Positions 36,771-43,388 of a stretch of 43,388 bases of DNA are shown here, piece after piece. The stretch is from Methylophaga sp. UBA2689 (GTDB lineage: Bacteria; Pseudomonadota; Gammaproteobacteria; Nitrosococcales; Methylophagaceae), in assembly GCA_002354555.1 (NCBI GenBank), contig DELT01000038.1, positions 1 through 43,388 on the forward strand, read 5' to 3'. Made by a program: the position numbers and the translations under genes. Each line of letters begins with the position of its first letter. Within the stretch, counting starts at the first letter, position 1. The notes beneath the pieces were generated by a model, which had not been told where the DNA came from, did not search any database, and worked only from the letters and a program-made list of their open reading frames with translations.

Positions 36771-39095
36771 TCATGAAAGCAGCTTTTCGCGTTTTGGATC
36801 GTAAAACGGTAATTTCACTACCTCACCGGCAAGCCTTTTCTGTTGACCATCCAGTTTTCCGATTTCGAGCCGCGTGCCGATATAGGCAAAATCAGGAGCG
36901 ATTCTCACCATAGCAATCTGCTTACCCATTAAAGGTGAGTAAGTTGCGCTGGTGACAAGGCCTACTGGGAATCGGCCGTTATAGACGTGATCTCCATGTG
37001 CTGCAGGATCACCACCATCAAGTACCATCCCCACTAGTTTATGACGACTCTCAGGAGTTTGACGGGCCAGCGCATCACGACCAATAAAGTCTTCTTTTTT
37101 AGTGTTAAGCGGCACACTGAATCCGGTACCTGCTTCAAATGGCGTAATTTCATGGGTAAATTCATGATCCGCCATACTTAAACCGGCTTCAATTCGCAGC
37201 ATATCCAGCGCATCAAACCCCATTGGAGCAATGTCAAAAACTTGACCGGCATGCCAGACAGCATCCCACACAGCTGATGAATCATCCGGATGACACCAGA
37301 CTTCATAACCAAGCTCACCGGTATAACCCGTTCGTGAAATCATCACTGGAATCCCGGATGGTCCATTAAGACGGCCAATGGTGAAGTGAAACCATTTGAG
37401 TTTTTCAACACTGGGTTGACTGTCCGAAGTCCAGACTATTTCACTCAGTAATTCGCGGCTGTTCGGTCCTTGTACTGCGAGATTATCCAGTTGTTCAGTT
37501 GCATTGCGAATGCTGACTTTAAAACCTTTTTGCTGAGCTTTTTCCCGCATCCAGACACCGGTATATTCTGCGCCGCACATCCAGCGATAGGCTTGTTCGC
37601 CCATGCGGAAGATGGTTCCATCATCAATCATGCCGCCGGTTTCCAGACAAATTGCTGAGTGTGCAATTTCGCCAATTGCCATGCGGCTGACATTCTGGGT
37701 TAACACATATTGTAAAAAGGCCACAGCATCAGGACCGACAACTTCAAATTTACGTAATGCTGATAAATCCAGCACGGCGACCCGTTCACGACAGGCCAGG
37801 TATTCTGCATTGGCTCCCCAACCATCATATTCAGTGGCGACCCAATAGCCGGCATAGTCGATAAATTTTTTGGTCAGTTCAGAGGTACGGTTATGGAAAC
37901 CGGATGCTTTTGTCATACGAGGTAACTCCTCAGAAGTGGTTCGATGGGCAATGGCGCGGGGGAAATTCTGTTCGGCATCATAAATCCGCACATGAATATC
38001 GGTCGGCTGCCAGCCATTAGCCGGATCAATATCATCCGGGCAGGCTGATGAGGCGCAGATAAGATCCCTATCGGCGCGAAACAATACATAATCGCCAGCA
38101 CGCGACCAGGGTTCATCCATAAATACCGCACCTGATTCATCAATCGCCGTGTTAAAAAATAAGTTGATTGCCGGCCAGCCGGCACGCGGAGCGATGCCAA
38201 AAGGTGCCAAAACCCGGTTAAAGTTCTCGGTACAGCTGATATGGCCGAAATAACCGCTGTCGTCATAATATTTTGGTGTGCAGGCCAACAGGAAACTGTC
38301 ATGTCGACCGACGGTATCCTGTACCACTTCCAGCATCGATAACAGATCGGTTCCCAGAAAACGTGAGTGCAGACCGGGAACCGGATTACTCAAGCCCATA
38401 ACCGTCCGGGTTGCGGTTGCATCAAGACCAACTTCGACGCCCTGTTCTAATGCTTGTTTATCAAAGGCAACAAAGTCTGAGCATTGCTTGCCAGAAACAT
38501 CGATGATCTGGATCCATTCGCCTTTTTGAACTTCATAGGTTTTTGCTGAGGCGAGAGGGATCCGCAACTCTGATTTAATCGGGCCTAATGGCTCCGGCAA
38601 TGAATCTTGATCAGGTTCAGCGTAGGTGACTTTTATATCAATCTCAGTCACCGGTAACTGTTGATCTACCGTCATTTTTGCACCCGCGGCGACGATTATG
38701 ACGTTAAGCTCGTTGAGCGCTGTTAAATTTGCTGCTTCAGACCCTGAGATACATATAGCCTGCTCCAGATGTGTTGAATCAATTTGCCAGCTGGCCAATT
38801 GGCCACGTAATTGTTCTGCAGCTGACCCCGTCTGCTCAAGCTGCTGTTTGATAGCCACTGCTGGAACAGGAGAGCGTTTTTCAAGTAGCTCTGGTGCCGA
38901 TTTGCCATTTGAATTCAATACAATAAGTTCACTATTCTGTGCTTTATCCTGGCTGGATATTTCCAGCTTATCGCCTGTTTTCAGCGAGAGTTTTATCGCT
39001 TGATGACCCGCCAGCCGATAGTGTCGGATAACCTTTTCTGGGGGGGAATTGAAAAAATAATCTTTCCCCCATTGCTGTTGTTGCAGTTCTAACAT
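36771..39095 (-). CDS. tdm: Trimethylamine-N-oxide demethylase (DUF1989-GcvT fusion)
   Basis: This 774-residue protein splits TMAO into dimethylamine and formaldehyde. An N-terminal DUF1989 metal domain (about 170-370) is joined to a C-terminal GcvT-like tetrahydrofolate domain (about 400-770). The zinc cysteines are Cys272, Cys288 and Cys352; the 16- and 64-residue spacing equals that of Cys263/279/343 of the Methylocella silvestris enzyme, as I recall them. Asp207 in QCSDF is also conserved. The GcvT part shows YDGWGANAEYLACRERVAVLD and SRTGYTGELGYEVW. AGGA lies eight bases before ATG 39095. It is divergent from a two-component system and close to tmm. Another DUF1989-GcvT aminomethyltransferase is the alternative, but the context favours Tdm. 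Confidence 0.85.
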   Translation of the reverse strand: MLELQQQQWGKDYFFNSPPEKVIRHYRLAGHQAIKLSLKTGDKLEISSQDKAQNSELIVLNSNGKSAPELLEKRSPVPAVAIKQQLEQTGSAAEQLRGQLASWQIDSTHLEQAICISGSEAANLTALNELNVIIVAAGAKMTVDQQLPVTEIDIKVTYAEPDQDSLPEPLGPIKSELRIPLASAKTYEVQKGEWIQIIDVSGKQCSDFVAFDKQALEQGVEVGLDATATRTVMGLSNPVPGLHSRFLGTDLLSMLEVVQDTVGRHDSFLLACTPKYYDDSGYFGHISCTENFNRVLAPFGIAPRAGWPAINLFFNTAIDESGAVFMDEPWSRAGDYVLFRADRDLICASSACPDDIDPANGWQPTDIHVRIYDAEQNFPRAIAHRTTSEELPRMTKASGFHNRTSELTKKFIDYAGYWVATEYDGWGANAEYLACRERVAVLDLSALRKFEVVGPDAVAFLQYVLTQNVSRMAIGEIAHSAICLETGGMIDDGTIFRMGEQAYRWMCGAEYTGVWMREKAQQKGFKVSIRNATEQLDNLAVQGPNSRELLSEIVWTSDSQPSVEKLKWFHFTIGRLNGPSGIPVMISRTGYTGELGYEVWCHPDDSSAVWDAVWHAGQVFDIAPMGFDALDMLRIEAGLSMADHEFTHEITPFEAGTGFSVPLNTKKEDFIGRDALARQTPESRHKLVGMVLDGGDPAAHGDHVYNGRFPVGLVTSATYSPLMGKQIAMVRIAPDFAYIGTRLEIGKLDGQQKRLAGEVVKLPFYDPKREKLLS

Positions 39096-39133
39096 CTGTC
39101 ATTCCTGGTTACGAAAAATATGAGCTTATCTGG

Positions 39134-39176
39134 TGCACTTTTTCAGTTTTTCGCAACATTAAAGTGCATAAACTGA
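39134..39176. promoter_or_regulatory. Inverted repeats in the tdm leader region
   Basis: TGCACTTT (39134-39141) and AAAGTGCA (39161-39168) form a perfect 8-bp inverted repeat. Each is followed by a second pair, CAGTTT (39144-39149) and AAACTG (39171-39176). They lie 40-80 bases upstream of the tdm start codon, where a regulator could act. Confidence 0.4.
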
Positions 39177-42081: not shown

Positions 42082-42231
42082 ATAGGTATTTTTCCAGTTT
42101 ATTAACCACTTACCCTGTTTGGGATACCCATAGAAGAGGATTTTTCATCATGGCATAGCAGGTTACTTTTACGCTGACAGCTGCATTAAACGCAGCATCA
42201 TGCATATTAATAACCTTGATGGAGTAAACCT
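42082..42231 (+). promoter_or_regulatory. Leader and promoter region of tmm
   Basis: This 150-bp gap separates the PAS gene from tmm. It contains a GGGATACCC palindrome (42121-42129) and a hairpin GCTGC-N7-GCAGC (42180-42196). A stretch TGGCATAGCAGG at 42151 recalls a sigma-54 -24 box, but its -12 partner is missing. GGAG lies eight bases before the tmm ATG. The gap is long enough for a separate tmm promoter. Confidence 0.4.
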
Positions 42232-43388
42232 ATGTCAACTCGAGTAGCGGTACTTGGCGCCGGACCCAGTGGCCTTGCACAACTTAGAGCATTTCAATCT
42301 GCCCAATCCAAAGGGGCTGAAATTCCAGAAATAGTCTGCTTTGAAAAACAAAGTGATTGGGGCGGTTTGTGGAATTACACATGGCGTACCGGTTTGGATG
42401 AAAATGGTGAACCGGTACATGGCAGTATGTACCGTTACCTTTGGTCTAATGGACCCAAGGAGTGTCTGGAATTTGCCGATTACACCTTTGAAGAGCATTT
42501 CGGTAAACCAATTGCCTCTTATCCTCCACGCGAAGTGTTGTTTGATTACATCAAAGGACGGGTAGAAAAAGCCGGTGTACGTAAATATATCCGCTTTAAT
42601 ACCGCTGTTCGCAATGTAACCTACGATGATGCCAGTCAAAAATTCACTGTGACAGTTCAGGATCACAGTACAGATACAGTTTATGCTGAAGAATTTGATT
42701 ACGTGGTCTGTGCTACTGGCCATTTCTCTACACCAAAAGTACCTACCTTTGAAGGCTTTGATAAATTTGGTGGACGTATTCTGCACGCCCATGACTTCCG
42801 TGATGCGCTGGAATTTAAAGACAAAGATATTCTGCTGGTGGGCAGTAGTTATTCTGCTGAGGATATCGGTTCGCAGTGTTACAAATATGGAGCTCGTAGT
42901 CTGATTAGCTGTTATCGAACGGCACCTATGGGCTATAAATGGCCGGAAAACTGGGATGAAAAACCCAATCTGGTCAAAGTCGATACCGATACTGCCTATT
43001 TTATGGATGGCAGCTCGAAAAAAATTGATGCCATTATTTTATGTACCGGCTATTTACATTACTTCCCATTCCTCTCCGATGATTTACGCTTAAAGACCAA
43101 CAATCGTTTGTGGCCGCTTAATCTCTATAAAGGCGTGGTTTGGGAAGATAATCCGAAGTTTTTCTATCTTGGCATGCAGGACCAATGGTACTCATTCAAT
43201 ATGTTTGATGCCCAGGCCTGGTATGCGCGAGACATCATTATGGGACGCATTGCGTTACCTTCAAAAGATGATATGAAGGCGCATAGCATGATGTGGCGTG
43301 AGAAAGAATTGACGCTGGAAACCGCTGAAGAAATGTATACCTATCAGGGCGATTACATTCAGGAATTAATTGATGCCACGGACTATCC
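42232..43388 (+). CDS. tmm: Trimethylamine monooxygenase (3' end outside window)
   Basis: The first 385 codons of a class B flavin monooxygenase are present; the Methylophaga enzyme has about 456 residues, so some 70 are missing. It oxidises trimethylamine to TMAO with NADPH and O2. The FAD loop GAGPSG is at residues 9-14. The FMO fingerprint [11 protein letters not shown] begins at Phe179. The NADPH loop starts at Gly204 ([10 protein letters not shown]). [18 protein letters not shown] and [16 protein letters not shown] blocks are those of bacterial Tmm. The sequence closely follows what I remember of Methylophaga Tmm, which is the best sign of the host genus. It lies in the same orientation as the two-component operon. 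Confidence 0.95.

Follow-up and report, generated by a model that had tools for sequence, protein, structure and literature searches.

Which regulator switches on the enzymes that carry trimethylamine (TMA) through TMA N-oxide (TMAO) to dimethylamine (DMA) and formaldehyde in Methylophaga? The question is raised by contig DELT01000038.1 of Methylophaga sp. UBA2689 (assembly GCA_002354555.1), whose 43,388 nucleotides we call the window. In it, tdm and tmm, predicted to encode TMAO demethylase and TMA monooxygenase, bracket three genes: those for a soluble NarQ/NarX-like histidine kinase (HK1), a NarL-type response regulator (RR1) and a stand-alone tandem-PAS protein (PAS1). Open reading frame (ORF) positions, strands and family identities are as an earlier sequence-only reading had described them. 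We conclude that HK1-RR1-PAS1 is probably a cytoplasmic signalling system dedicated to methylamine genes. This is suggested by the linkage of the cassette to both enzymes, by its co-occurrence with tmm and by a promoter element that tdm and tmm share with further methylamine genes.

Conservation and linkage of the cassette

HK, RR, PAS, tdm and tmm are found together at all 15 HK1 cassette loci, which span five gammaproteobacterial families: G000 (the genome of the window), G001, G004, G005, G006, G009, G013, G020, G021, G022, G055, G200, G595, G707 and Pseudomaricurvus. The neighbourhoods were checked by tblastn in addition to simple ORF calling; contig ends truncate tdm in G001 and G013. HK1 is strongly matched (E at most 3.5e-148) in ten of the 24 genomes of the genus, and tmm exceeds its family cut-off in the same ten. 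Both tmm and the cassette are also present in G055, a family member outside the 24. A scan of named genomes gave eight loci, six in Methylophaga, one in a gammaproteobacterial metagenome-assembled genome and one in Pseudomaricurvus (Cellvibrionaceae). The HK1 of Methylophaga sp. EAC20 is 95% identical to that of the window, and the cultured host Methylophaga aminisulfidivorans carries the cassette. Pseudomaricurvus has the gene order of the window, tdm followed by HK-RR-PAS-tmm, with a dmm operon farther along; identities are 54% (HK), 74% (RR), 64% (PAS), 67% (tdm) and 84% (tmm).

In a sample of 369 genomes of the class, tmm occurs in 11, namely the genome of the window, G200 and nine others. 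The G200 cassette is divergent (HK 36%, RR 54% and PAS 46% identity), and an HK1 search of these 369 genomes at E≤1e-60, a threshold too strict to find it, returned the window's own genome only. Among 48 genomes of its family, searched at E≤1e-45, G200 alone matched. An HK1 profile run on 398 genomes of the phylum (E≤1e-50) gave four matches outside the own genome. Those in G707 and G595 are short kinases within full cassettes including tdm and tmm, and those in G473 and G552, being longer NarX-type kinases, were set aside. The G595 cassette is rearranged yet linked, with tmm and tdm pointing one way and HK-RR-PAS the other. In the RR1 tree 12 loci form one clade (support 99/98), separate from E. 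coli NarL and from RR2, a paralogue described below; RR1 of G595 is unplaced.

The sequence-only reading had inferred the regulatory link from position, and had named conservation of kinase, regulator and PAS gene next to tmm or tdm as the way to check it. Such conservation is found at every cassette locus, and the link is supported by co-occurrence, by linkage that withstands rearrangement and by the NarL-type element before further methylamine genes.

A promoter element shared by tdm and tmm

The two intergenic regions of the window upstream of tdm and tmm, 39096-39447 and 42082-42231, hold conserved blocks when aligned across loci and share one promoter element: a NarL-type dyad of two heptamers spaced by two bases (7-2-7), then GRATT and a -10 box. 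With a weight matrix made from tmm sites only, the tdm site ranked third in the window (43 kb). Among nine other loci, it came second in L044, L047, L048 and L049, third in L050, L051 and L072 and fifth in L046; in L063 (G200) the second match (5.8) lies in the tdm-HK gap, under a better chance match, and the tmm site is outside the top five. Conversely, a tdm-only matrix applied to ten loci placed the tmm site second in six, third in one and fifth in two, and missed it in L063. The same matrices gave a third Pseudomaricurvus site, about 85 bases upstream of the dmm operon.

We then used two sequence models, R1, built on 17 sites (eight tdm, eight tmm and the Pseudomaricurvus dmm site), and R2, built on 34. 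With R1, 13 cassette genomes gave 45 matches at E≤2. Training sites, or the corresponding sites at tdm/tmm, account for 25 of them. Fourteen of the remaining 20 precede dmm (nine), a TMA-dehydrogenase-like gene, tmd (two), or an APC permease gene (three); the dmm-associated site of G001 precedes a small gene located ahead of dmmD. The other six lie off methylamine genes: G004:C4:63414 (E 0.45) is uninspected, and those in G009:C2, G005:C1:1643987, G055:C27, G009:C12 and G004:C8 (E 0.26-1.08) are all within script-drawn ORFs. Four on-target sites (G000 permease; G003 dmm, tmd and cupin) also overlap a script-drawn ORF or an early start. Family searches gave the identities of DmmA and HODM alpha and the family of the permease; dmmB and dmmD are named by place and domains, and the 727-aa Oxidored_FMN protein is presumably TMA dehydrogenase, judging from its N-terminal sequence.

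Applied to 14 Methylophaga genomes without HK1 and nine tmm-bearing outgroup genomes, R1 gave 19 matches, 16 of them in Methylophaga. Of these 16, 14 belong to dmm (six), tmd (two), the permease (three) and a cupin gene beside RR2 (three). The other two are G003:C21:9693 (E 1.98, untabulated) and G008:40686 (E 0.26), the latter before an ORF without assignment. Outside tdm and tmm, Methylophaga has 24 matches at E≤0.25: 13 at dmm, four each at tmd and the permease, and three at the cupin gene. The three matches outside the genus, in G415 (E 0.081), G312 (E 0.68) and G106 (E 0.79), have no gene assignment. With R2 and stricter filters, none of 50 cassette-less genomes, most of them unchecked for methylamine genes, had a match at E≤0.25. 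In the two cassettes that lie outside R1 training, dyad-bearing sites scored 11.0 (G707 tdm), 11.9 (G707 tmm) and 16.3 (G595); of 100 shuffles each, one reached the first of these values and none the other two. The predicted regulon is thus wider than tmm and tdm, to which the sequence-only reading had tied the system: the element does lie at both, and also before dmm, tmd and the permease.

Among 28 on-target sites outside the training set, 7-2-7 at position 1 was the most symmetric of 219 choices of arm and gap (72% complementary, mean 26%; TACTCCC-AA-GGGAGTA is an example). Because the model that picked these sites represents the same element, and because many of the sites are related, the dyad figure describes the element and is no fresh test of it. 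A subset of 21, from which seven mostly near-duplicate sites were dropped, gave 76%. When 32 of the 34 R2 sites are followed past the 33 positions of the model, a TAnnTT box emerges at positions 54-59, with 0.96, 1.37, 0.94 and 1.66 bits at T, A, T and T and at most 0.42 bits at other downstream positions; it is two or three bases nearer at seven tdm sites (Methylophagaceae and Pseudomaricurvus). The fixed register of dyad, GRATT and -10 box suggests activated sigma70-type promoters.

A second system beside dmm

Thirteen of the 24 genus genomes encode HK2, a membrane-bound NarX-like kinase, and six have both HK1 and HK2. At all 13 HK2 loci the kinase and PAS2, a protein with two transmembrane stretches and two PAS domains, adjoin dmmDABC (in G000 the genes are spread over two contigs). 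RR2 is present at 12 of the 13, the G011 contig ending first, and the cupin gene at 11. In G009, RR2 scores 275.8 with the NCBIfam NarL model and so exceeds its cut-off of 250. HK2-RR2 apparently uses the same promoter element as HK1-RR1.

The dmm genes (PF11927) occur in 16 genomes, each with HK1 or HK2. The seven genus genomes without either kinase have no dmm and no R1 match; because they also lack dmm, their missing sites are no independent evidence. In genomes with HK1 and without HK2, a site precedes dmm in G001 (E 0.0028), G005 (E 3.2e-5), G022 (E 5.1e-4) and Pseudomaricurvus (a training site), and RR1 alone could therefore suffice. Sites at tmd and the permease were found only in genomes with the HK2-type paralogue, save the incomplete G013. 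The permease that bears the element (L118:10087-11565, L110:10643-12196, L115, L161, L162, L163) is related to a TMAO permease family (211.5 bits, cut-off 690) and is a candidate methylamine transporter. As a side observation, a small cupin-like gene (L051:4769-5128, L063:3173-3526) separates tdm from an ammonium-transporter-like gene; a 57% relative, located beside RR2, bears the promoter element in three genomes.

Features of HK1, RR1 and PAS1

The best NCBIfam families of HK1 are NarQ (180.8, cut-off 553) and NarX (141.3, cut-off 578), both below their equivalog cut-offs; RR1 comes closest to NarL (203.6) without passing its cut-off of 250. HK1 and eight homologues contain no membrane-spanning stretch (best 19-residue Kyte-Doolittle mean 0.70-1.35), in agreement with the soluble cytoplasmic NarX-like kinase that the sequence-only reading had proposed. 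Pfam searches gave no sensor domain in HK1 or HK2, and neither a GAF nor a PAS match in HK1. H201, within AAELHDSLAQ, is the candidate phospho-acceptor of HK1 and is invariant across nine aligned sequences; only C222 and C243 of its cysteines are invariant in alignment A1. The structure model of HK1 (mean predicted local distance difference test score, pLDDT, 77.8) shows an alpha/beta N-terminal domain, and its best fold matches are kinases. From its order of helices and strands this domain looks GAF-like.

In RR1, the candidate phospho-acceptor D56 is invariant and the DNA-binding helix nearly so across eight aligned sequences. The best PDB sequence match is E. coli NarL 1a04 (E 1.6e-42), and the two proteins have in common a TVKVxVK stretch, whose residues we take to contact DNA. 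PAS1 has PAS matches across both halves and no output domain was found in it; its structure model is poor (mean pLDDT 64.7).

Control of the HK1 operon

In each of 11 aligned tdm-HK regions, a sigma54-type box, TGGCA-N7-TGC, occupies the corresponding position; the box occurs in none of 12 tmm upstream regions. It has the spacing of the -24/-12 sigma54 consensus, and upstream of it lie two sequences resembling the NtrC half-site consensus, whose cores are kept in the 11 aligned loci. Sigma54 thus seems to control the HK1 operon in most loci, with NtrC a plausible activator.

Gene layout and neighbouring genes

The features are collected in Table 1. RR1 shares its first four bases with the end of HK1 and PAS1 begins one base after RR1, so that the three genes look like a tight operon; tdm diverges from it and tmm lies downstream on the operon's strand. 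The tdm product scores 1050.6 bits against NCBIfam NF053776 (TMAO demethylase), slightly below the cut-off of 1100, and has DUF1989, GCV_T and GCV_T_C domains. Despite its truncation, tmm passes NF058570 (737.8 bits, cut-off 675). Its missing end (model positions 376-442) is matched by a short piece at the terminus of another contig of the assembly (G000:C59:7412-7612), and tmm appears to be split over two contigs of this draft genome.

Table 1. Genes and predicted regulatory sites in the window, and one HK2 locus
Feature	Position	Strand	Details
tdm, TMAO demethylase (predicted target)	36771..39095	-	774 aa; NF053776 and domains
NtrC-like half-site GGTGCA, core GGTGC	39132..39137	+	core in 11/11 aligned loci
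NtrC-like half-site AGTGCA, core GTGC	39163..39168	+	core in 11/11 aligned loci
Candidate -10 box of tdm, TAAATA	39220..39225	-	2 bases closer than at most other targets
Predicted response-regulator site, tdm promoter: TAACACC-AA-TGAGGTA then GAGAATTG	39244..39276	-	R1 E 3.2e-5 (training site)
Sigma54-type -24/-12 box TGGCATAAAAACTGCT, upstream of HK1-RR1-PAS1	39300..39315	+	TGGCA-N7-TGC
HK1, soluble NarQ/NarX-like histidine kinase	39448..40629	+	393 aa; HisKA_3 and HATPase_c
RR1, NarL-type response regulator	40626..41300	+	Response_reg and GerE
PAS1, stand-alone tandem-PAS protein, candidate sensor/accessory	41302..42081	+	PAS_3, PAS, PAS_9 matches
Predicted response-regulator site, tmm promoter: TACCCTG-TT-TGGGATA then GAGGATTT	42111..42143	+	R1 E 1.9e-4 (training site)
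Candidate -10 box of tmm, TACTTT	42164..42169	+	
tmm, TMA monooxygenase (predicted target), 3' part lost at contig end	42232..43386	+	NF058570
HK2 system of G009	L111:11367-16042		NarX/NarL-like with membrane tandem-PAS protein beside dmmDABC

A window site at 17119-17151 (+) scored higher with the tmm matrix (11.0) than the tdm site (9.4); it is not among the five R1 matches of its own genome and was taken as chance. It ends 9 bases before an 883-aa ORF. On its far side tdm is adjoined by a CynX-like transporter gene of the major facilitator superfamily (309.7 bits, cut-off 312) with a divergent MarR regulator (34896-36742), and such a transporter adjoins tdm in L044 and L046 too. Genes that by eye look like XRE-type regulators (L065:10743-11360 in G415; L072:9390-9980 in G055), located next to tmm or separating tdm from a gmaS-like gene, are other candidate methylamine regulators.

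Discussion

The full mechanism that we propose, and consider likely, is that of a dedicated cytoplasmic three-component system activating methylamine genes. An internal signal of methylamine supply (TMA, TMAO, DMA, or the formaldehyde or redox load from their oxidation) would be perceived by the tandem-PAS protein, presumably in contact with the kinase, and/or by the GAF-like N-terminal region of HK1. HK1 would autophosphorylate at H201 and pass the phosphate to D56 of RR1. A dimer of phosphorylated RR1 would bind the 7-2-7 dyad, whose centre would lie some 57 bases ahead of the transcription start, and would activate promoters in which a TAnnTT -10 box is combined with a poor -35. Its targets would be tdm and tmm in the window and dmmDABC in relatives; the TMA-dehydrogenase-like gene and the permease may belong to them as well, perhaps via the paralogous membrane system instead. 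Sigma54, plausibly acting through NtrC, would drive the operon in most loci, so that the sensor would be made when nitrogen is short.

Several observations weigh against this reading. Nine of the 11 class-sample genomes with tmm have no HK, RR or PAS homologue within 10.6-19 kb around it, and tmm therefore does not need HK1-RR1-PAS1; the co-occurrence of HK1 and tmm in the genus is a count that ignores kinship among the 24 genomes. G200, the most divergent cassette genome tested, has no R1 or R2 match, and its tmm upstream region scores 1.5, a value reached by 2 of 100 shuffles. G415, which has no cassette, has an R1 match at the end of a contig (E 0.081). Almost as symmetric as 7-2-7 (70%, 28 sites) is an overlapping dyad with GTAC at its centre, and the left half is poor at two of the 28 sites (G003 cupin, 1/7; G003 tmd, 3/7). 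The sigma54-type box was not found in G707 and G595, and hence is present at 11 of the 13 loci checked. Finally, with the element apparently shared, either response regulator may act at a given site in the six genus genomes with both systems.

The last point bears on the most serious alternative, that the element belongs chiefly to HK2-RR2 and that HK1-RR1-PAS1 is an auxiliary or cross-talking branch tuning the same promoters. HK2 and RR2 do adjoin dmm (in 13 and 12 loci), the element is present in HK2-only genomes, and RR2 is NarL-type too, more strongly than RR1. Five genomes argue the other way: in G001, G005, G022, G055 and Pseudomaricurvus, which encode HK1 but lack an HK2 ortholog, the element is nevertheless present at tdm and tmm, and in four of them also at dmm. 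We regard this alternative as possible though rather unlikely. The cassette might also have hitchhiked with tmm and tdm, mainly regulating something else such as redox or formaldehyde stress, with another regulator reading the element. Transfer of the whole block is hinted at by the position of Pseudomaricurvus RR1 inside the Methylophagaceae rows (modest support, 83/88); the linkage kept in rearranged G595, the NarL-type character of the element and its absence at E≤0.25 from 50 cassette-less genomes make such hitchhiking improbable. Sensing of nitrate or nitrite as in NarXL, which would set methylamine use by electron acceptor or nitrogen source, appears very improbable, even though the nearest named families are NarQ/NarX and NarL and the operator resembles a NarL site. 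HK1 lacks both the membrane segment and the periplasmic sensor with which NarX and NarQ sense nitrate, neither HK1 nor HK2 has a Pfam sensor-domain match, and within the genus HK1 tracks tmm. Moreover, in the excerpts of PMC11526790, a separate NarXL lies in the denitrification region of Methylophaga nitratireducenticrescens.

Returning to the proposed three-component system, its wider form is one that we put forward tentatively. NarXL signalling would have been recast at least twice as three-component methylamine systems, soluble beside tmm/tdm and membrane-bound beside dmm, with the tandem-PAS protein as the real sensor. One operator would provide a single promoter code for the breakdown of TMA via DMA to monomethylamine (MMA) in gammaproteobacterial methylotrophs, and nitrogen supply would, via sigma54, determine how much of the soluble sensor is made.

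In the sea, methylated amines make up an important share of the dissolved organic nitrogen (excerpts of PMC13390433), and control of their oxidation has only recently been resolved, in one Roseobacter with an AraC-type regulator. Gammaproteobacterial methylotrophs would offer a different and testable control system, for which sites and residues can be named and a cultured host exists, and would show the re-use of a nitrate switch for another nitrogen compound. By the same token, NarL-annotated regulators beside dmm, such as RR2 of G009, may not be nitrate regulators. A functioning promoter element could be used as a methylamine biosensor.

Comparison with known systems

The sequence-only reading knew of no described regulator of this kind for tmm/tdm. 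This stands for two-component systems: titles and abstracts, with subscription journals mostly outside coverage, yielded none for tmm, tdm or dmm, and the word regulator is absent from the text of the dmmABC paper PMC5520151. It does not stand for regulators in general. According to excerpts of PMC13390433, TmaR of Ruegeria pomeroyi is an AraC-type activator of tdm and the genes downstream, and TmoR is a repressor of tmm. Besides tmm, tdm and dmm, TmaR governs other methylamine operons, and its signal is an MMA-derived catabolite. The words Methylophaga, two-component and histidine kinase are absent from the main text of that paper. TmaR and RR1 are both linked to the control of methylamine genes, RR1 by prediction, and differ in that RR1 is a Response_reg and GerE protein.

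HK1-RR1 resembles NarX/NarQ-NarL of E. coli in combining a HisKA_3 kinase with a NarL-type receiver/GerE regulator. NarL prefers 7-2-7 sites, and an engineered NarL palindrome reads TACCCCTAAAGGGGTA (excerpts of PMC4549865); the predicted element has the same geometry and, by sequence comparison, nearly the same heptamer. NarX and NarQ have a GAF-like domain ahead of the kinase core (excerpts of PMC8199190). They carry a periplasmic nitrate sensor between two transmembrane helices, whereas HK1 has neither, and the cassette further differs in its stand-alone PAS partner, its linkage to methylamine genes and its scores below the NarL, NarQ and NarX equivalog cut-offs.

NreB of Staphylococcus is a cytoplasmic HisKA_3 kinase and NreC is NarL-type. 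The four-Cys Fe-S PAS domain of NreB was not found in HK1, which has no PAS match and only the two invariant cysteines. NreA, a soluble GAF protein, acts on NreBC (excerpts of PMC8199190), and to that extent NreABC, like the cassette, joins a kinase and a response regulator with a separate soluble sensor-domain protein. The third protein is GAF in one and tandem PAS in the other, and bacteria and target genes differ. A further related system, HK2-RR2 of Methylophaga itself, is likewise of NarX/NarL type, stands next to a tandem-PAS gene and apparently shares the element; it differs in that kinase and PAS protein are membrane-bound and RR2 forms a clade of its own.

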